NCBI GenBank assembly: GCA_002282445.1
Contig: NCJK01000002.1
Coordinates: 124,001 to 188,000, forward strand
Direction: 5' to 3'
Source of the DNA: Burkholderiales bacterium 39-55-53
GTDB taxonomy: Bacteria > Pseudomonadota > Gammaproteobacteria > Burkholderiales > Burkholderiaceae_C
DNA: 64,000 nt
Shown here: in pieces, positions 6,606 to 14,105 of the stretch
How positions within the stretch are numbered: the first letter of the stretch is position 1
Layout: each line of letters starts with the position of its first letter
Position numbers and translations under genes: made by a program
Notes under the pieces: generated by a model
What the model was told of the DNA's origin: nothing
What the model saw: only the letters and a program-made list of their open reading frames with translations
The model's database searches: none

Positions 6606-6699
6606 GACGGGCCTCCTCACATGGTGAAGCGGCCAACCGGGTCAGGTGGGGAACCAAGCAGCCCTAACTGTGGAGTCAGTGCTGAGGGTCGGGCCCGTC
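6606..6699 (+). ncRNA. ffs: 4.5S signal recognition particle RNA
   Basis: The RNA of the bacterial SRP binds Ffh and targets membrane proteins to FtsY and the translocon. The conserved Ffh-binding hairpin is readable: GGTCAGGTGG, the GGAA tetraloop at 6650-6653, then CCAAGCAGCC. The ends pair perfectly as GACGGGC (6606-6612) with GCCCGTC (6693-6699). About 94 nt is normal for the short SRP RNA. A T-rich stretch follows from 6703. Everything from the tetraloop to the 3' end is duplicated at 13715-13767 because an element integrated here. The 3' half of the working gene is therefore probably element-derived. Confidence 0.92.
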
Positions 6700-6702
6700 A
6701 CC
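6650..6702 (+). repeat. Left attachment repeat (attL core), within ffs
   Basis: 53 bases identical to 13715-13767. The repeat starts exactly at the GGAA tetraloop of the SRP hairpin and runs three bases past the end of the RNA. The crossover must lie somewhere inside it. Confidence 0.88.
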
Positions 6703-6765
6703 TTTTCTTCCTCAAATGAGGCTAGTCAAGGCTTAGCCGACATCCTCTGTCTGCCAATCGCTGAT

Positions 6766-6790
6766 TTGTGTCACCTAGCTGTGTCACTTT
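6766..6790 (+). repeat. Putative integrase arm-type site, left
   Basis: TTGTGTCAC, five bases, then TGTGTCACTTT. The same two words with the same five-base gap recur at 13644-13668 near the other end, in the same orientation. The site lies 63 bases inside the left repeat and upstream of the integrase start, suiting integrase or accessory-factor binding. Confidence 0.55.
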
Positions 6791-6814
6791 GGTCTAACCC
6801 AATCAGCACACACC

Positions 6815-7996
6815 ATGGCAACTACGACAGGACTCTTTCGCAGAAACGGACACTTCTACGTTCGTGTACTACTACCACTTCAGCACCCTCTTCGTCTGAC
6901 AGGCAAGTCCCGCATCGTAAAAAGTCTAGGGACAAGTTCACCAAATGAAGCAAAGGTACGAGCACTAGAGACAAGACTCAAGATCCTTAAGAACTTAGAC
7001 ACGTCTGTGCAATGGGCGGCACTTAGACCAACCATTCCTATCTTGGCTCCAACGACTCACTCGCTTCGAGAGATCTTCGAGAAATGGAGGCAGTCACACC
7101 CTCGAAGCACCGACAGTATCAACTCCTGCGATAGATCACTCAAACTGTTTGAAAACCTTGTGGGCAACATAGCTGTTGAGCAAGTAGACAGAGCCATGGG
7201 TGCACAATTCAAAACTCATTTATTGCAGCTAGATACGACCCCCAAGACTGCCCGAGATCGACTCATATGGGTCAAGTCATTGTTAAATTACGCCCACAGG
7301 GACTTAGAACTGACTAGCCGCAACGTATGGAACGGTATAGACATCAGCTTCAAAACAACTAAGCGCAGAAGACCATGGTCGGAGGAGGAGTTAAACACCC
7401 TCTTCTCACAACCTCTGTTTACAGAAAAGAAGCTTCCAAGAAACAAGAAAGCAGGAGGTTGGGCGGCATATTGGGTTCCACTCATTGCAGTGTTTTCAGG
7501 CGCACGAGTCAGCGAGATTTGCCAGCTAACTGCGGATGACATTGACACAAACACAAGCCACCCAACCATCAAAATCAGAAGTAGGTCTGAAGATCAGCGC
7601 TTAAAGACCGTCAATGCGGAGCGTGACATACCGATACACCCTCAACTCATTGAACTTGGTTTTCTGAAGTATGTCGAACAAATCAAAAGCGCCCCTGCTG
7701 CAAACAACCTATGGCCTGACCTGCCTAAACGTAACGAGCGCAGTGGTGGTTATTTCAGTCAATGGTTCGGCGAGTACCTCAAAACTCTTCAACTGAATGG
7801 TGAAGTGGACTTTCATAGCTTCAGACACACAGTGCGGACACAACTGGTTCTCAAAGATGTTTCTGAAATTGCAATTGACCGCTTGTTGGGCCACTCACAC
7901 ACAGGCAGCGTTGGTTCTCGGACTTACACACACATTGACTCTCAGTTACCAACGGTGGTTTGCAAAATTAGCTATCAATTCAATTTGAATAATTAA
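6815..7996 (+). CDS. Tyrosine recombinase / site-specific integrase
   Basis: A 393-residue integrase. The N-terminal arm-binding region begins GLFRRNGHFYVRV, as in phage-type integrases with a DUF6538-like start. A SAM-like core-binding domain spans about residues 85-175. The catalytic domain has the first Arg in FSGARVSEIC (about residue 231), HxxR in FHSFRHTVR (about 334-337), His in LLGHSHTGS and the nucleophile Tyr in SRTYTHI (about 371). The set R-H-R-H-Y is complete, so it should be active. Its position just inside the ffs repeat, reading away from ffs, indicates that it integrates the element into ffs. Confidence 0.93.
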   Translation: MATTTGLFRRNGHFYVRVLLPLQHPLRLTGKSRIVKSLGTSSPNEAKVRALETRLKILKNLDTSVQWAALRPTIPILAPTTHSLREIFEKWRQSHPRSTDSINSCDRSLKLFENLVGNIAVEQVDRAMGAQFKTHLLQLDTTPKTARDRLIWVKSLLNYAHRDLELTSRNVWNGIDISFKTTKRRRPWSEEELNTLFSQPLFTEKKLPRNKKAGGWAAYWVPLIAVFSGARVSEICQLTADDIDTNTSHPTIKIRSRSEDQRLKTVNAERDIPIHPQLIELGFLKYVEQIKSAPAANNLWPDLPKRNERSGGYFSQWFGEYLKTLQLNGEVDFHSFRHTVRTQLVLKDVSEIAIDRLLGHSHTGSVGSRTYTHIDSQLPTVVCKISYQFNLNN

Positions 7997-8016
7997 TACA
8001 AATCAAGCAAAAAACA

Positions 8017-8044
8017 TTGACAAATCTATAAATACGAGTAAAAT
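8017..8044 (+). promoter_or_regulatory. Sigma-70 promoter of the HTH gene with overlapping palindrome
   Basis: TTGACA (8017-8022), a 16-base spacer and TAAAAT (8039-8044) form a near-consensus promoter. A perfect palindrome GAGTA-AAA-TACTC (8036-8048) covers the -10 element and would suit a repressor operator. It drives the gene at 8131, which has a good AGGAG ribosome-binding site. Confidence 0.6.
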
Positions 8045-8130
8045 ACTCAACATAGCGCCCTTACTCGATTGGACAACGCTGTAACCACCTTTTCGGGCAA
8101 TTACGCCCATTTTTTAGGAGTTGCACGTCC

Positions 8131-8709
8131 ATGCGCTATTTGTCACTATTCCCCTTCCCTTCTGACCCGTCTGACGAGCTTGTTATCGATCTAAACAAGC
8201 CTTGCAAAGATGATGTCCAGTACGCAATTGATTTACTGCGTCACTCAGTCAGACATGCTTATCTGAGCAACTTTAAAAGACTCTTAAAGGCGAAGTTTCC
8301 GAGAGCGACCGATAACGTCGACTCAAGAAAAAGTCGCTTAATCAAGCCGGAATTCGCACCTAAACGGCTTCATGCTGACGAAGCGATCACCCTACTTGAG
8401 GGTCTTCTTTGTAGAGGCAAAGATAAGACAAAAAGACAAGTTCATCCAAACTCGCTTTGCAACCTTAGGCCAGCAACTAGATTCACTCAACAAAATCGCC
8501 CTACGAAGCCTTGCCTAATGTCGGATCAACAAGTCCAAAAGGCCATGGAACTGAGGGATCACGGTTGTTCATGGCGAAGCATTGGAGATAGTCTTGGGGT
8601 GAATTCTGAGACGGTTAGATCAACGCTTCGTCGCCGAGGGAACCAAGCATCAAATCAGGAGCTTATCTCAAGCCAAATACAAGGAGAAAAAGTGCCAATT
8701 AAGGGCTAG
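8131..8709 (+). CDS. Unknown element protein with C-terminal helix-turn-helix
   Basis: 192 residues, not recognised as a named family. The only readable domain is a helix-turn-helix near residues 130-171: DQQVQKAMELRDHGCSWRSI followed by GDSLGVNSETVRSTLRRRG, resembling resolvase/Hin-type or homeodomain-like HTHs. The N-terminal 100 residues are basic (SNFKRLLKAKFPRA and neighbours). Start ATG at 8131 has TTAGGAG upstream. It follows the integrase and precedes the polymerase-like gene, so a regulator, excision or replication-initiation role is plausible but unproven. It may bind the palindrome in its own promoter. Confidence 0.6.
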   Translation: MRYLSLFPFPSDPSDELVIDLNKPCKDDVQYAIDLLRHSVRHAYLSNFKRLLKAKFPRATDNVDSRKSRLIKPEFAPKRLHADEAITLLEGLLCRGKDKTKRQVHPNSLCNLRPATRFTQQNRPTKPCLMSDQQVQKAMELRDHGCSWRSIGDSLGVNSETVRSTLRRRGNQASNQELISSQIQGEKVPIKG

Positions 8710-8837
8710 GTAGCCAACGCCCTGTTCACCTCGAATAGAGTGTGTGTGTTGATGCTGGTGCTTTGAAGCCTTTATCAAGCCATAACAGCGATGTCATAGC
8801 CTTGAAATTGTCATCTGACTCAATCCCATTTATTGTT

Positions 8838-10124
8838 ATGAACAAAACACCCACCAGTTCCATCGAGGTAAATGATGAACCAGTTGAGAAAGACTTGTTC
8901 TTCGACCCATTAGCTAAGCCTGTCACAAAACGTGCTCAGGAGGCATCAAGGGCCTTTCTCGATCACTTCATAAAAACTGAAAGCCAATTCAAGCCAAGAA
9001 AGCGTGCGAGAAAGGCAATAGATCAGTCGATCCTCGAGGAGCAACTTGGATGTATCTTTGCCAACCTAGCCTCAAGCCAACTCTGTAAGAAGCCCAAAGC
9101 CATAGCAATCCCTCTGTCTAAGCAGGAATTGGGGCGCAAGAACACTCCACGAATTCTCAATGACAAGCTAAGGGAAGTACTTGAAACTTTGTGTGGAGCG
9201 TTTGCTGATGCTTTGACACTCGAGATCGGCAGTTACAACAAAGGCAGAAGATCGACCATAGAACCAAGGCCCTACATATCTGAACTGATCATGGCATTCC
9301 ATCTCAGGAAAAGTGACTTCAACACAAAAGAACGTCAACCCGTCATCCTAAGAGCTAGAAAGACACCTGACCAAAAAAGAAAAGGCAAGCCCGGCAAAGA
9401 ACTAGAGCTACCAGACACCGCTGAAGTCAAAAAGCTACAAGAGCAGATCAATCAGATCAATGCATTCATCAGACAACAAGACATTAGATACGTTGGAGAT
9501 AGACCTGAAATAGATGAAGAACGACTAACCATCTACAGGGTGTTCAACAACGGAAGATTAGACGAAGGTGGAAGACTCTACGGTGGGTTCTGGCAACAAC
9601 TAAGTGGTGAAGAACGTGATGATGAGATCCTGATCAATGGAGAGCATGTTGTAGGCCCTGACTACGGACAGATGGCTGTGTCTATCCTCTATGCCCTAGA
9701 AGGTATCCCAATACCCCTAGAAGACGCTTATAAGCTCAGGGGATGGGAAGACTACAGGGATGGAGTTAAAACTTACATAAACAAGCTTCTCCACGATGAC
9801 ACTGGTACACCTAAGGCTAAGAAGTCAGACTTCATTGGGTGTAAGTACAAGAAGGTAGAAACCATCACTGAGGCTTTAAGGAAGGATGTCTTTGAACAAC
9901 ATAGAGCTATAGCTCATCACTTCGATGGAAGCATCAGTGGTAGATTGTTCTACGAGGAAAGTAACCTCTTAGTCCATCTACTGCTTGAGCTACAGAACAA
10001 GGGCATCTGTGCCTTACCTGTTCACGATAGCCTCTATGTGAACATAGACATGGCCACAGAGACTATAAAGACAATGAAATCTGCCTTTAAAGAACTCTTA
10101 GGAGGTAACATTGAAGTCTATTAA
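8838..10124 (+). CDS. Superfamily A polymerase-like protein (TV-Pol type)
   Basis: 428 residues from the ATG at 8838; the frame also opens at a GTG at 8742. The C-terminal half carries GGRLYGGFWQQL (about residues 245-256), then GEHVVGPDYGQMAVSILYAL (about 268-287), where the Asp-Tyr looks like polymerase motif A. Near the end, LPVHDSLYV (about 392-400) resembles motif C (HD). This layout fits the transposon/virus polymerase family (TV-Pol) described by Iyer and colleagues as relatives of family A DNA polymerases with predicted primase-polymerase activity in mobile elements. The N-terminal half is basic and unrecognised. It probably replicates or repairs the element; activity is not shown. 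Confidence 0.68.
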   Translation: MNKTPTSSIEVNDEPVEKDLFFDPLAKPVTKRAQEASRAFLDHFIKTESQFKPRKRARKAIDQSILEEQLGCIFANLASSQLCKKPKAIAIPLSKQELGRKNTPRILNDKLREVLETLCGAFADALTLEIGSYNKGRRSTIEPRPYISELIMAFHLRKSDFNTKERQPVILRARKTPDQKRKGKPGKELELPDTAEVKKLQEQINQINAFIRQQDIRYVGDRPEIDEERLTIYRVFNNGRLDEGGRLYGGFWQQLSGEERDDEILINGEHVVGPDYGQMAVSILYALEGIPIPLEDAYKLRGWEDYRDGVKTYINKLLHDDTGTPKAKKSDFIGCKYKKVETITEALRKDVFEQHRAIAHHFDGSISGRLFYEESNLLVHLLLELQNKGICALPVHDSLYVNIDMATETIKTMKSAFKELLGGNIEVY

Positions 10125-10226
10125 GTACATAGATATACATGGATGCCTACTCCCTTAGAGGGGGTGATAGCCACCTTAGTAAACGACACACCAACGTTAA
10201 TTAACCGCATTAATAAAGGTTTAACA

Positions 10227-10769
10227 ATGAAGTTCTTCACCACAACACTAGGTATGCTACTTTCACTTTTGATTACTTCCAAAGCAATAGCGCAGCAAGT
10301 TAATGGAAGTATGGATTGCAAGGTAACTGGCAATGTTGTTATTTCTAGTGAGGAAGGGAAATCCAAACGGTACTCTAGCATTAAAGATGGTAGCAAAGAA
10401 GGTGATAAGTTAACATTTAAGTACACCATAAGAAATTCGGGGTTATTTCTTTCACTTGAAAATGAATTCACTAAACATATTGAACTTAACACAATATTTG
10501 ACTTTAAGGATGGAAAATTAGAACGCCCTAAAAGTCGAGGACTTATTTACACCGGTACCTATAACGAAGTGACATTTTCAGAAGATTACATAAGACTCGA
10601 AAACTCTTTTGGAAAAATATTTCTCTCAAGATATTATAAAAATGACTGGCATGGTATTTATTTAATGATATCTGCAATGGAGTTAACCACTCAAACAATG
10701 ACAATCAACTGCAGACATAACAATGACCAAATGGAATCGGGTTATAAAATTTATTCCCGTAAGTTATAA
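10227..10769 (+). CDS. Exported protein of unknown function
   Basis: 180 residues beginning with a signal peptide (MKFFTTTLGMLLSLLITSKA, cleavage after AIA). The mature part is about 158 residues with two cysteines (one near each end) that could form a disulfide, and predicted mostly beta structure. The ATG at 10227 is chosen because it starts the signal; AAAGG lies upstream. Codon use is AT-rich. The general plan (Cys near the start, a T-F-x-x-x-I-x-x-x-G-L-F stretch, Cys near the end) resembles the protein at 11393-11890, suggesting distant kinship. Function unknown. Confidence 0.72.
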   Translation: MKFFTTTLGMLLSLLITSKAIAQQVNGSMDCKVTGNVVISSEEGKSKRYSSIKDGSKEGDKLTFKYTIRNSGLFLSLENEFTKHIELNTIFDFKDGKLERPKSRGLIYTGTYNEVTFSEDYIRLENSFGKIFLSRYYKNDWHGIYLMISAMELTTQTMTINCRHNNDQMESGYKIYSRKL

Positions 10770-10801
10770 AATATGTTTATTAGTTTTTAGAAAATCAAAA
10801 A

Positions 10802-11083
10802 ATGAAAGCAATCTCAATAATATTAATTATGGTAACGCTAACTCTTACGCTCGGCTGTTCAAAAAATGATCCACAACTAGAACTGGAAAAAGCTGTAAAA
10901 AATCTACCAAGAAATTCAATTGGCACCCCCGCTTATTGGTACGAAATGAATGGCCTAACTGGTTGGGAAAAAGTCATATTGGTTTTTGGCTATGCAGAGA
11001 ACTTAGAAGTGTGCCAATACATGGTAAAACTTGGCAAAAAAGACTCACCGGAGAGAGATTTCAAGTGCACACCTGCTAATTAA
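10802..11083 (+). CDS. Small lipoprotein of unknown function
   Basis: 93 residues with a lipoprotein signal: a hydrophobic run then LTLGC, so Cys19 would be lipidated. The mature part is about 75 residues with two more cysteines (EVCQYM and DFKC). It follows the exported protein by 32 bases on the same strand and probably shares its transcript. No family recognised. Confidence 0.65.
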   Translation: MKAISIILIMVTLTLTLGCSKNDPQLELEKAVKNLPRNSIGTPAYWYEMNGLTGWEKVILVFGYAENLEVCQYMVKLGKKDSPERDFKCTPAN

Positions 11084-11093
11084 CTTGAGTGCG

Positions 11094-11366
11094 TTAACAG
11101 CCGTTGTAGTTCTTCTTCCCGCTAGGTGTGATCGTGTAAGTACCACCTCTAGGCCCTGTGTAACAGGTTGGAGGCTGTCTCGGCGTTGTGTCTTGTTGCT
11201 GTCGCTGAGGCGTTGCTGGTTGAACTACTGCTGGAGCACGATGGCAATGGTAGTCGCCAGTCTTATGGTTAGTGTGACAGCCTTCTGAGTTAAGACCGCC
11301 TCCATGAGCAAATGCAAAACGTACCGCCAATAGAAACAACATGAGTGCTAAGTATTTCAGCCGCAT
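11094..11366 (-). CDS. YHYH-type small secreted protein
   Basis: 90 residues with a signal peptide ending ...RFAFA. Next comes HGGGLNSEGCHTNHKTGDYHCH, shown here as two pieces: HGGGLNSEGCHTNHK and TGDYHCHR. This His/Cys-rich signature is common in small bacterial secreted proteins and may bind metal. A Pro/Gln-rich linker leads to a C-terminal CYTGPRGGTYTITPSGKKNY motif also seen in nuclease-associated small domains. Catalytic function is not evident. It is the last gene of the minus-strand exported block. Confidence 0.7.
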   Translation of the reverse strand: MRLKYLALMLFLLAVRFAFAHGGGLNSEGCHTNHKTGDYHCHRAPAVVQPATPQRQQQDTTPRQPPTCYTGPRGGTYTITPSGKKNYNGC

Positions 11367-11392
11367 AAATGTGCTTTTTAAAAAAACTTAAC

Positions 11393-11890
11393 TTAAATTT
11401 CTGAAAATTTCCTTGACTGCTGAAGAATGCATCGATATTCAGCATTAACGATCATACTCGTGGGGTTTGAACCTTGATTTAAAACAAATTCAGAAATTTC
11501 TGCCTGTCCTGTATATCTATTTATTTTTATTGTTGTTTGCCAATTTGCTTGCACTTTACCCCCCTGCTTGAATGGATCATCAAGAACATTACTGTAGGTA
11601 TGAGAATATCGATACTGCTCATCTGAGACCATGAAATGGTAGGGGCCTAAAAAACCATTTTCTAAAAAAGGACCGGAAAGCGTGTAACCGTCTATGGTAA
11701 ATAAGCCATTTTCTTTGATGGTGAATGTAACCAACGAAGCTTCCGTCTTTCCACCTGTCTTAAATAGATCCGATATTTTTTTCACTCCCTCACACTGCAA
11801 TCTAACAATTGGCTGAGCTGAAATATTCGCAGAAAATAGAAGTGTAGAAAATAGAGAAAATATAGTTATAAAACAAAATTTATATTTCAT
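11393..11890 (-). CDS. Exported protein of unknown function
   Basis: 165 residues with a clear signal peptide (MKYKFCFITIFSLFSTLLFS, cleavage near SAQ). The mature part is about 140 residues, beta-rich, with cysteines in LQCEGV and YRCILQ, near the two ends. The pattern resembles the plus-strand protein at 10227-10769. The frame is open upstream to 11920, but the ATG at 11890 gives the signal. No known family. Confidence 0.7.
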   Translation of the reverse strand: MKYKFCFITIFSLFSTLLFSANISAQPIVRLQCEGVKKISDLFKTGGKTEASLVTFTIKENGLFTIDGYTLSGPFLENGFLGPYHFMVSDEQYRYSHTYSNVLDDPFKQGGKVQANWQTTIKINRYTGQAEISEFVLNQGSNPTSMIVNAEYRCILQQSRKFSEI

Positions 11891-11894
11891 ATGC

Positions 11895-12143
11895 TTATTG
11901 CTCTGGCTCTTTAGAACCATGCTTTCCGTTGTAAGGGTTCACATTTGGTTTACTCGACCAGTTATCCCTCTGAGTGTGGTTAGGGTTAGTTGAACGATGC
12001 GGAGCGACATAAGTTCCATTCTTCTTGAAGTGTCCATTCACATGATGTGAACCACCGCCCCCTGAACCTGCTTTTTTAGCAAACGATAGAGGCGAATGAA
12101 ACATTAACGTAACCAGCAATAAACCATTTATCAATTTTTTCAT
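11895..12143 (-). CDS. Small secreted protein with HxxGxxKKNGTYV motif
   Basis: 82 residues. The signal peptide ends SFAKKA, then a glycine stretch and a 40-residue block with VNGHFKKNGTYVAPHRST, NHTQRDNWSSK and NVNPYNGKHG. This block recurs in many small exported proteins of proteobacteria and their mobile elements, but has no settled function. It lies four bases upstream of the next exported-protein gene, so they are cotranscribed. Confidence 0.68.
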   Translation of the reverse strand: MKKLINGLLLVTLMFHSPLSFAKKAGSGGGGSHHVNGHFKKNGTYVAPHRSTNPNHTQRDNWSSKPNVNPYNGKHGSKEPEQ

Positions 12144-12151
12144 CAGATCTC

Positions 12152-12532
12152 CTATTTTTCAATGCTCAAAATGCGATTTAATGTTTGATCAAAGTGACAC
12201 GTAATTACTTTGCTAACCACCTTATTTCCGAACCTATCAACATCATGGAAAACTAAAACTATGTCGCTTCCAAATGAATATTTGGGCATCACAGCTATGT
12301 TGTATTCTTTTTTTACTGCTACGCCTGCACCATCGATGCATTCTTGTCCGAGTGTTGTCAATGTCTGAAGCGATTTAAATCGGCCGCTTTCTTCAGCGAC
12401 TAGGGCAACAGACACACCACTTCTTCGCTCTTTAAAAACTGGAAACTCATAAGAATGCGAGGTGATCTGAACTGATAGCAAAGTAAAAAAGGCAACTAAG
12501 CTTGAAAATTTCAATTTCTTTCTAGTAATCAT
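12152..12532 (-). CDS. Exported protein of unknown function
   Basis: 126 residues. A basic start (MITRKKLKFSS) and hydrophobic segment suggest a signal peptide or anchor, with possible cleavage near HSYE. The mature domain is about 95 residues with two cysteines (GQECIDG and ITCHFD), probably beta-rich. Part of the tightly packed minus-strand block. No family recognised. Confidence 0.6.
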   Translation of the reverse strand: MITRKKLKFSSLVAFFTLLSVQITSHSYEFPVFKERRSGVSVALVAEESGRFKSLQTLTTLGQECIDGAGVAVKKEYNIAVMPKYSFGSDIVLVFHDVDRFGNKVVSKVITCHFDQTLNRILSIEK

Positions 12533-12568
12533 GGGTTACCGACTTGTATCAAAAAATTAAGATCACTT

Positions 12569-12994
12569 TTATTTAGTTCGTTTAAGCGCTGACTTCACCT
12601 CTTCAGCAAAGTTCTCGTTCTTTAAGTTGCAAACACTTGCGTGGTTACCCCACTCATCAGTTCCATTTGCTGACCTAATGAGATACAAAGTTTGCCCATA
12701 GCTGACTGAAGTGCCGCAAGCTTCCGTAGCGCCGACTTCCACGATAAGTTCCCTGTAGTTGAACGTACCCTTGATGTTCTCAAGGACGCTAACGGTATAA
12801 GGGCGCTGGAATGACGACCTATTTTGAAACCTCGTCCAAATCTCGCCAATAGTTGGGTAGTCGATCCTTAGCTTGGTGAATTCATACTGTTCTTGAGCTG
12901 CAATTTCCTCAGGAGTGAACATTTTGCAACTGCAAGCAAACGCTGGCCCCCAAAAAGCTAAAAAAACAATCGTTCCAGTAAGGATGAATTTCAT
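12569..12994 (-). CDS. Secreted CxC protein, possibly NTR/TIMP-like
   Basis: 141 residues. The signal peptide ends FACSC, so the mature protein may begin at Cys-Ser-Cys, as in netrin/TIMP-like (NTR) domains. Further cysteines are in EACGTS and SVCNL. The stretch YTVSVLENIKGTF followed by GQTLYLI also fits an OB-fold NTR domain. In animals such domains inhibit metalloproteases; bacterial ones are mostly uncharacterised. The call is from motif resemblance only. Confidence 0.58.
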   Translation of the reverse strand: MKFILTGTIVFLAFWGPAFACSCKMFTPEEIAAQEQYEFTKLRIDYPTIGEIWTRFQNRSSFQRPYTVSVLENIKGTFNYRELIVEVGATEACGTSVSYGQTLYLIRSANGTDEWGNHASVCNLKNENFAEEVKSALKRTK

Positions 12995-13006
12995 CTTAGT
13001 GCGCTA

Positions 13007-13360
13007 TCAATTGCATCCATAAGCGGTACAAGTCTTCGTATAAGACTGGCCTTGACTGTTCGTGCCTGAATAGGTGGTCATACCCGGCATTGTCTGGATT
13101 GTTTCATTCCATGCACGCCCATTAGCTTGGCCTTGTATCTGTGTGGTGTTTCCGTAAGTCTGACTGTTCTGTGTCCAGTTGCTACCAGTTCCAGCGTTGT
13201 GACCTTGCATGTTGGTTGTGTTGCCATACTTTTGAACGTTGTAGCTGTTGCCACTTACGTCATTGCAGTTGTAGCTGTTTGCAGATCCATAGCAAGCGGC
13301 TTGTGAACTAAGCCCCAAGCTCGTGAGAATAACGAAATAAAGAGCTTTAGATTGCAACAT
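13007..13360 (-). CDS. Secreted Asn/Gly/Thr-rich repeat protein
   Basis: 117 residues from the ATG at 13360 (AAAGGC upstream). Signal peptide ends SSQA, followed by CYGSANSYNCND. The body holds imperfect repeats built around YGNTTNMQG and YGNTTQIQG, spaced about 27 residues apart, with Gln, Asn and Gly dominating. The C-terminus has two cysteines (KTCTAYGCN). A low-complexity beta structure is likely. The frame opens upstream to 13501, but that would bury the signal. Outermost gene of the exported block. Confidence 0.62.
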   Translation of the reverse strand: MLQSKALYFVILTSLGLSSQAACYGSANSYNCNDVSGNSYNVQKYGNTTNMQGHNAGTGSNWTQNSQTYGNTTQIQGQANGRAWNETIQTMPGMTTYSGTNSQGQSYTKTCTAYGCN

Positions 13361-13714
13361 GGATGCCTTTTGGTGGTGTCTTGTCATTCTGACACCTAAT
13401 CCTTTAGCTTTGCACTTTTTTGTTCGCTGCCTGACATTAGTCAATCCGAAGATGGGTAGGTCTGGAAAATTCCGTTTTGTGTGGCTACGCAGTTCCTGCA
13501 AAAGCTACGCAGAACGCTAAGGACACCCCCGCCCTAGTTGCCGGTAAAGATTTTCTAAAGAGCGAATGCCAACACGGCTCAAAAAGACCAGTTGGAACAT
13601 GTTGTCTAAGCAAGAATCTGAGGGCTAAAATAAAGTTCTATTTTTGTGTCACTTCTGTGTGTCACTTTCAGCTATGACAGGTCAGGGTCAGGTGTTAGTT
13701 CCGCTAGGAACGTA
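13361..13714. other. Right-end noncoding region of the element
   Basis: About 350 bases hold no convincing gene. Present are the arm-type repeat (13644-13668), a ten-base copy of the SRP motif GGGTCAGGTG (13685-13694) and the inverted repeat GTTCC-GCTA-GGAAC (13697-13710) just before the right attachment repeat. Together these look like the recombination arm of the element. Confidence 0.6.
13644..13668 (+). repeat. Putative integrase arm-type site, right
   Basis: TTGTGTCAC, five bases, TGTGTCACTTT: the same words and spacing as 6766-6790. It lies 46 bases inside the right attachment repeat. Confidence 0.55.
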
Positions 13715-13767
13715 GGAACCAAGCAGCCCTAACTGTGGAGTCAGTGCTGAGGGTCGGGCCCGTCACC
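13715..13767 (+). repeat. Right attachment repeat (attR core), displaced ffs 3' end
   Basis: A perfect 53-base copy of 6650-6702. It lacks the 5' half of ffs and is not a functional RNA gene. The sequences on both sides differ from those around the left copy, as expected at an attR. Confidence 0.88.
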
Positions 13768-13862
13768 CTTGCTAAAGAGTTCACCAAAGCGCTCGCAAAC
13801 CCTATACCCGTTCCCTCAAGATAGTCCTAGACTGATCTATGTCAATCAAAGACGGGGGACTT

Positions 13863-14105
13863 ATGAAATTACATCGCTTCTTTTTAATTGCCTGGCCATC
13901 AGCCTTGGGTGCGGCCTTGATGGAGATGCTTGTTTTTGCAGTGTTAGACCCAATGCAAATTCCACAGATTGAAAACATACCGGGCATGACCACCCAAGGT
14001 GTTTACAGCATGGCTTTTTTTGTATTTTGGGCCGCCATCAGCTTTGCGTGTTCATTGACCTTGATCTTGTCCCAGCCCGTTGCCCAAAAGCACGTGGCAA
14101 TCTAA
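13863..14105 (+). CDS. Small two-helix membrane protein, unknown
   Basis: 80 residues from the ATG at 13863, preceded by a G-rich stretch usable as ribosome-binding site; an in-frame ATG at 13839 is the alternative. Two hydrophobic segments (about residues 5-25 and 42-65) make it an inner-membrane protein. Similar short proteins occur near respiratory genes in Burkholderiales. It is the first chromosomal gene right of the element and ends one base before the convergent ctaB stop. Confidence 0.6.
   Translation: MKLHRFFLIAWPSALGAALMEMLVFAVLDPMQIPQIENIPGMTTQGVYSMAFFVFWAAISFACSLTLILSQPVAQKHVAI

Follow-up and report, generated by a model that had tools for sequence, protein, structure and literature searches.

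An integrative element of about 7 kb very probably occupies the 4.5S SRP RNA gene ffs in a Burkholderiales genome

Introduction

Is the 3′ end of an essential RNA routinely provided by mobile DNA? This question is raised by a locus in Burkholderiales bacterium 39-55-53, a freshwater bacterium, in which the gene for the 4.5S SRP RNA (ffs) is followed at some distance by a second copy of its own 3′ end. We analyzed a stretch of 64,000 nucleotides around this locus (the window), for which an initial annotation had proposed an integrative element of about 7 kb with ffs as its attachment site. The direct repeat, an intact integrase gene, and an empty site in a close relative all agree with this proposal, and we consider it very probable that a small integrative element, or genomic island, recombined into ffs at this locus; it would be of the kind whose tyrosine integrases target RNA genes.

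Results

The ffs gene was located by cmscan at positions 6606–6702 of the plus strand (RF00169, 59.7 bits, model positions 1–97). This is the window's single match to the bacterial small SRP RNA, and cmscan of the whole genome returned one small SRP RNA match at the same place. The perfect 53-bp repeat of the ffs 3′ end noted in the initial annotation is present: the attL copy (6650–6702, +) is identical to the attR copy (13715–13767, +), which represents the displaced 3′ end of ffs. Extending the comparison to 6650–6708 and 13715–13773 gives a longer direct repeat with 57 of 59 identical positions (97%). Between ffs and the copy of its 3′ end lie 7,065 bp of low-GC DNA, and the GC content of 0.427 between the repeats versus 0.543 in the remaining window bears out the AT-rich interior that had been described. 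Each border thus carries, in direct orientation, the 3′ end of the target, and the target is regenerated at attL, where the 5′ part of ffs is host DNA and the 3′ end belongs to the element. ARAGORN detected neither tRNA nor tmRNA genes in the window.

An empty site was sought in related genomes and found in a close relative (G028). The joined flanks of the window align to this genome in one piece of 715 columns (81%) that runs across the junction at 397; with the element left in place, the match splits. A second genome (G005) was not taken as an empty site, as ~660 bp with one small ORF lie between its ffs and the host flank. It has no second core and is perhaps a remnant.

Comparison of the 12 complete elements (5.1–14.8 kb, the window's included) revealed that ffs 82–95 is the only stretch repeated in all of them. 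This stretch, at 6687–6700 (+) in the window, is the probable crossover zone, assigned in the window's element by homology to elements with integrases 35–49% identical and to one Pseudomonas element of another clade. As the common repeat is limited to these positions, the part of ffs contributed by the element most likely amounts to 16 nt or fewer at the 3′ terminus, together with the sequence downstream. Restoration of the gene, as initially proposed, stands; its extent is probably smaller than the 53-nt repeat suggests and than the "3′ half" that had been assumed. The sequence GACGGGCC was found at the start of 60 of 71 distinct ffs sequences, and the near-constancy of this partner strand across these hosts would explain how ffs continues to fold with an imported 3′ end. 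One element (G081) was kept outside the 12, its ends falling on two contigs; an ffs copy is present behind its right-end arm-like site. Searching 17 kb in G319 (L127) with exact seeds of 12 yielded no repeat.

The first gene of the low-GC DNA, just inside ffs, is a tyrosine integrase gene (6815–7996, +), complete as claimed and with an open ORF. Its product of 393 aa combines DUF6538 (1.4e-9) with the catalytic domain (Phage_integrase, 1.8e-14), and the residues R231, K264, R337, H360, and Y371, which we take to be catalytic, are invariant or nearly so in the integrase alignment A2. That homologous integrases also abut ffs was evident from the family search, in which the nine best-scoring places are all at ffs, and from the phylogenetic tree, in which the Burkholderiales clade of the window's integrase consists of ffs users in 22 of 22 rows (support 98/97). 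The branch of the window's integrase is long (0.96), and the sisters of this clade use tRNA-Ser, tRNA-Ala, or tRNA-Val. A separate gammaproteobacterial clade (Pseudomonas, Halomonas, and Ferrimonas) is found at ffs in all seven cases, and Pseudomonas perhaps holds a third ffs-using group.

Among the best 80 of 108 relatives, 33 loci carry ffs on the plus strand upstream of the integrase match, which is no unbiased rate, since the scan patterns were taken from ffs-adjacent integrases; in one of the 33 (L204), ffs lies ~1 kb ahead of a broken integrase frame. A regular expression for ffs missed the two Halomonas genes, which were detected by cmscan and by a covariance model (R1), and counts therefore rest on this model. 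Of the 16 ffs sequences behind it, 14 come from the searched loci and match by construction. The tree left out eight of the 80 loci with open frames below 350 aa (L148, L153, L157, L181, L194, L195, L204, and L209) as well as columns filled in fewer than half of the rows; the window and G098 were added, and 17 viral loci stand outside. Among its loci labeled none_found, L185 does contain a tmRNA gene, and L161 and L163 were later found at ffs. For L122, L140, and L141, the frames used extend too far upstream, into ffs, which produces false integrase matches on ffs.

Inside both ends of the element stands the pair TGTGTCAC-N5-TGTGTCAC, at 6767–6787 (+) for attL and 13645–13665 (+) for attR, without mismatch. 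These two matches compare with 0.05 expected in the window. A TGT-N10-TGT pair (13-bp spacing) occurs at +64 to +75 after ffs in 23 of 25 attL sites, at a shuffle rate of 0.007; these sites are those of the window and of all named Burkholderiales ffs loci but one (24 of 25, without L195). Across the 12 complete elements, the left-end pair is present in nine (missing in L122, L157, and L171) and the right-end pair in five (the window, L123, L125, L126, and L160); of the others, four show just one right-end site, and no such site occurs in L122, L135, and L171. The pairs are putative arm-type sites, and the integrase most likely binds them at both ends.

Two further plus-strand genes follow the integrase. 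The first (8131–8709) encodes a helix-turn-helix DNA-binding protein of 192 aa with a weak match (phrog_664, 2.6e-6; Pfam HTH below cut-off), and the second (8838–10124) a protein of 428 aa that is tentatively family-A DNA-polymerase-like (phrog_4756, 2e-31). Folding the latter from its single sequence gave a pLDDT of 33.5 and was not usable; AF2 with a 7-row alignment reached 79.0, and Foldseek returned family A DNA polymerases as best matches to this model (best E 2.7e-5, but TM-scores of at most ~0.35). PDB sequence searches with this protein gave nothing useful. The remaining ORFs appear to be cargo. On the plus strand, they comprise a secreted-type protein of 180 aa (10227–10769; signal-like N-terminus by eye; Lipocalin_4 0.007, below cut-off) and a small lipoprotein-type ORF of 93 aa (10802–11083, by eye). 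The minus strand holds small ORFs judged by eye to be of secreted type, with 90 aa (11094–11366; PBCV_basic_adap 0.0011, below cut-off), 175 aa (11393–11920; 32% over 74 columns to the 10227 ORF, E 0.004), 82 aa (11895–12143, outside the family scans), 126 aa (12152–12532), and 141 aa (12569–12994), and another secreted-type ORF, of 117 aa from an internal ATG (13007–13360), from the ORF list and the family scan. No excisionase was identified in the element, and matches to promoters and terminators were no more frequent than in shuffled sequence.

The locus could also be a dead remnant, i.e., an old integration at ffs that is now immobile and whose secreted-type cargo has turned into host DNA; we regard this as unlikely, though it retains some weight. 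Among 299 family genomes, the polymerase-like gene was found in the window's genome alone, so this particular element has been seen once, and the genus also holds decayed elements at ffs, either as left-end sequence without an integrase (G075 and G038) or with truncated integrases (G008 and G061). Against this stand the intact integrase ORF, repeats that are perfect over 53 nt, and arm pairs free of mismatches at both ends. The element is probably still mobile.

A degenerate prophage or phage satellite with incidental use of ffs is an unlikely origin. Viral contigs do encode relatives of the polymerase-like protein, which also matches four large phage records weakly, and D5/DUF5906 primase-helicases are present in other elements at ffs (L124, L126, and L157). 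However, capsid, portal, and terminase matches, as a prophage should give, are absent from the 10 of 11 element ORFs scanned against Pfam and PHROGs, and ffs was found in none of 17 viral contigs with related integrases, five of which (L216, L221, L222, L223, and L230) have an integrase frame that starts at the contig end and an unreadable flank. The same 10 ORFs gave no match to relaxase or mating-pair genes, the mark of an integrative conjugative element, and Pfam returned no D5/DUF5906 primase-helicase, the mark of a P4-type satellite, in the window's element.

It is hardly credible that chance duplication, or homologous recombination acting through ffs, created the 53-nt copy next to an integrase placed there by coincidence: near-whole ffs is duplicated in some relatives (115 nt in L124, 98 in L126, 92 in L145, and 104 in L171), as homologous recombination could produce, but same-clade elements with repeats of just 14–23 nt still contain ffs 82–95, a shared core that already contradicts this origin, all rows of the integrase clade lie at ffs, and the arm pairs keep a fixed distance from ffs. 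Two ffs genes each in G024 and G039 were rejected as duplications; beyond ffs, the sequence is the same or almost the same at the contig ends, which marks these copies as assembly overlaps or variants. G046, which may be an assembly overlap, was not counted as a repeat, and G064 was left out, its second dnaX-ffs having a different sequence.

Discussion

An integrative element in ffs is directly supported by the anatomy of the locus, the empty site, the repeated clade-specific association with ffs, and the recurrent end architecture. In the mechanism we propose, an attP with a copy of the ffs 3′ end would have been recombined with the chromosomal ffs by the element's integrase. Judging from the shared core, the exchange probably took place within the last ~14–16 bp of ffs, which form the 3′ strand of the terminal helix. 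In the resulting gene, the promoter and 5′ part would be the host's own, and the 3′ end with the sequence downstream would come from the element; the former 3′ end would have been moved to its position at the far border. Once the element is excised, the helix-turn-helix and polymerase-like proteins may act in its regulation and replication.

In a wider reading, which we consider improbable, several independently evolved integrase lineages share ffs as a general landing site that has been largely overlooked. The occupants would modify the SRP RNA gene, each replacing the 3′ tail and the downstream terminator region and some adding a complete second ffs (Comamonas L145, Curvibacter L124/L143, and Pseudomonas L171), with the integrase read from the ffs promoter. 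If true, integration could tune SRP RNA level or 3′ processing. 

The ffs site is missed by island finders restricted to tRNA/tmRNA genes, and these integrases are on offer for a conserved chromosomal site. Within this integrase family the recognized core differs (tRNA 3′ ends versus ffs), whereas at least one sister that uses a tRNA gene has arm sites that look alike, a clean case that opens target switching to direct study.

The initial annotation had called ffs a rarely noted target. Rarity holds in the literature found; the site is already known, as PPH015, a prophage group of Streptococcus pneumoniae, has ffs (SPD_RS00125, SRP RNA) as its integration site, with short, near-identical attL/attR cores and attB within ffs, according to the available text (PMC8637289). 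Among the matches listed, several from blunt searches, this is the sole report found of ffs as an attachment site, and none was found of the elements described here; the available text of PMC10383233, PMC10763512, PMC12637031, PMC12884075, PMC12424338, and PMC539331 holds no report of such a site. PPH015 resembles the window's element in its target, and differs in being a prophage (39,182 bp in one example), in its Gram-positive host, and in its core sequence, as far as the available text describes it (PMC8637289).

Islander and TIGER islands share site-specific integration, an RNA gene that is split and restored, and a displaced fragment at the other end, according to the available text (PMC4383910, PMC12424338). 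Islander differs in that, as described there, tRNA/tmRNA genes alone were examined (PMC4383910); the TIGER/Islander announcement gives tRNA/tmRNA, protein-coding, or intergenic loci, and its available text lacks the terms ffs, SRP, and 4.5S (PMC12424338). Also close are the tRNA (L154, L155, L156, L158, and L164) and tmRNA islands (L162, L173, L184, and others) with related integrases. They target the 3′ end of a tRNA or tmRNA gene rather than ffs; as in the window's element, their integrase gene follows the 3′ end of the RNA gene in the same orientation, and the tRNA user in Derxia (L155) has the same TGTGTCAC pair.

Structure of the element and its empty site

The window contains a single gene for the 4.5S SRP RNA, ffs (6606-6702, + strand; RF00169, 59.7 bits, full model), and a whole-genome scan returned one match at the identical place. 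The initial annotation had described a 53-nt repeat of the ffs 3' end, a complete tyrosine integrase just inside ffs, and an AT-rich interior, all of which were borne out: 6650-6702 is identical to 13715-13767, an intact 393-aa integrase frame lies between the repeats (6815-7996), and GC content is 0.427 inside the element versus 0.543 in the remainder of the window. Further contents between the repeats are an HTH protein, a 428-aa protein, and eight small ORFs of secreted appearance, as judged by eye. No tRNA or tmRNA genes were found within the window. The regenerated ffs folds into one long hairpin.

The empty site anticipated in relatives was found in genome G028, where dnaX and ffs are followed by a relative of the window ORF 13839-14105 and then by ctaB, with no insert between. 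Window flanks joined in script aligned to G028 as one piece (715 columns, 81% identity) spanning the junction, and the match split in two when the element was retained. In another relative, G005, ffs and the host flank are separated by some 660 bp (locus L111, 1598-2250) that hold a single small ORF of secreted type; both integrase and second core are absent from this stretch, which is perhaps a remnant.

Probable crossover zone and arm-type sites

Both ends are visible in twelve loci, comprising the window element (7,065 bp, repeat of 53 nt) and those of L122 (14,771 bp, 17 nt), L123 (13,571 bp, 23 nt), L124 (14,764 bp, 115 nt), L125 (11,638 bp, 14 nt), L126 (12,910 bp, 98 nt), L135 (11,175 bp, 80 nt), L145 (5,146 bp, 92 nt), L157 (9,711 bp, 18 nt), L159 (5,260 bp, 23 nt), L160 (6,665 bp, 21 nt), and L171 (9,862 bp, 104 nt). 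The only repeat stretch common to all twelve is window 6687-6700, corresponding to ffs 82-95 when numbered backwards from the conserved 3' end, with both limits set by L125; within the terminal helix it forms the 3' strand. Most likely, then, the element supplies at most 16 nt of the SRP RNA plus downstream sequence. Thus, the proposal that it restores the 3' half of ffs holds for the 3' end but not for a half, and the extra identity of the 53-nt repeat lies left of the core and is unnecessary for rebuilding ffs. Since the partner strand GACGGGCC starts 60 of the 71 distinct ffs sequences read, an imported 3' strand should be able to base-pair in nearly all of these hosts. Some ffs elements (L124, L145, L171, and L068/L069 of G081) carry a complete or near-complete second ffs at attR, the right end; by eye, no native-looking promoter precedes the copies of L145 and G081.

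The pattern TGTGTCAC-N5-TGTGTCAC, with up to two mismatches allowed, has exactly two matches in the window (0.05 expected), at 6767 and 13645, i.e., one pair inside each element end. A TGT-N10-TGT pair starts 64-75 nt past ffs in 23 of 25 Burkholderiales attL (ffs-side) sites, compared to 0.7% of shuffles. A stricter pair pattern detected the left pair in nine and the right pair in five of the 12 complete elements. Relative to ffs 82, the right pair lies at -83/-70 in L125 and L160, which have short repeats, at -82/-69 in L123, at -107/-94 in the window, and at -116/-103 in L126. Four elements show a single right-end site (L124, -106; L145, -107; L157, -83; and L159, -107 despite its short repeat), and the stricter pattern found none in L122, L135, and L171. 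The motif of the ffs-element attL sites is also carried by L155, a tRNA-Ala user. These putative arm sites would be bound by the DUF6538 domain of the integrase.

Integrase relatives and repeated use of ffs

A family-wide integrase search gave matches in 31 of 399 genomes (E ≤ 1e-20), and 30 of the 38 listed places were taken as loci. The integrase adjoins ffs in 11 of these 30; the suspected association with ffs held for the nine best-scoring places, which are among the 11, and for all 22 rows of the window's clade. Within the window's genus, 71 of 84 genomes have an ffs match, and an integrase homologue follows ffs in at least seven of the 71 (window's included), a lower bound because some contigs end near ffs. 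G075 and G038 have left-end sequence containing arm-like sites after ffs, with no integrase within the stretch read, and in G064 the contig edge falls inside left-end-type sequence after ffs. The integrase of G002, from the same genus, is 99.7% identical to that of Limnohabitans sp. B9-3. Locus L137 is from a record titled Rickettsia typhi MAG; an identical integrase is present in G057, which belongs to the window's genus, so the record's label looks wrong.

A scan of named genomes yielded 108 loci encoding an integrase relative. Of the best 80, searched with a covariance model, 33 have a + strand ffs upstream of their integrase match, and three more, all Pseudomonas, have an adjoining minus-strand ffs or ffs fragment; these rates are biased because the scan patterns derived from ffs-adjacent integrases. 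Hosts of ffs-adjacent copies include Limnohabitans, Variovorax, Polaromonas, Curvibacter, Comamonas, Piscinibacter, Pelomonas, and Pseudorhodoferax.

A tree computed from 74 integrases groups the 22 ffs users from Burkholderiales in one clade with no other row (support 98/97), neighboured by users of tRNA-Ser, tRNA-Ala, and tRNA-Val. In a distant clade drawn from Pseudomonas, Halomonas, and Ferrimonas, all seven integrases are at ffs, counting two Halomonas loci whose ffs was missed by a regular expression and recovered by cmscan. The integrases of Pseudomonas L191, L198, and L199 make up a third group. Each neighbours an ffs copy, seemingly displaced, in the reverse orientation; this appears to be a different layout, with attR as the integrase-bearing end. 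No ffs was found in the loci of their sisters L187 and L197. Thus, ffs probably became a target at least twice in this set of integrase relatives. Five Vibrio relatives (L162, L173, L184, L186, and L189) are located at tmRNA genes, and four of them share a sub-clade.

Cargo and comparison with known elements

Cargo varies among the relatives' elements. According to Pfam scans of 20 selected proteins, L124 encodes type I restriction-modification, L135 a restriction helicase, and L171 an Mrr/nSTAND protein; L124, L126, and L157 each have a D5 or DUF5906 primase-helicase, and L122 has a serine resolvase. More resolvase-like ORFs were seen by eye. The 428-aa protein (window 8838-10124) has no sequence match in Pfam or PDB and belongs to phrog_4756 (function unknown, no Pfam model), a family represented in viral contigs as well as in this small integrative element. 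Its fold, predicted with six viral relatives in the alignment (pLDDT 79.0), gave 33 PDB matches at E ≤ 0.001, all of them DNA polymerases of family A (lowest E 2.7e-5). As TM-scores are low (at most ~0.35), the predicted likeness to these polymerases is tentative. In Neorhizobium (L238) and G594 (L240), distant relatives of the protein are encoded a few kilobases away from an integrase; a role in replication after excision would be a guess.

Our search of open-access full-text literature, in part too broad for full reading, turned up no description of ffs islands from these bacteria. In pneumococci, prophages of group PPH015 are described as integrating into ffs (PMC8637289). The kind of element is familiar; what is new is the ffs target and its clade-specific, repeated use.
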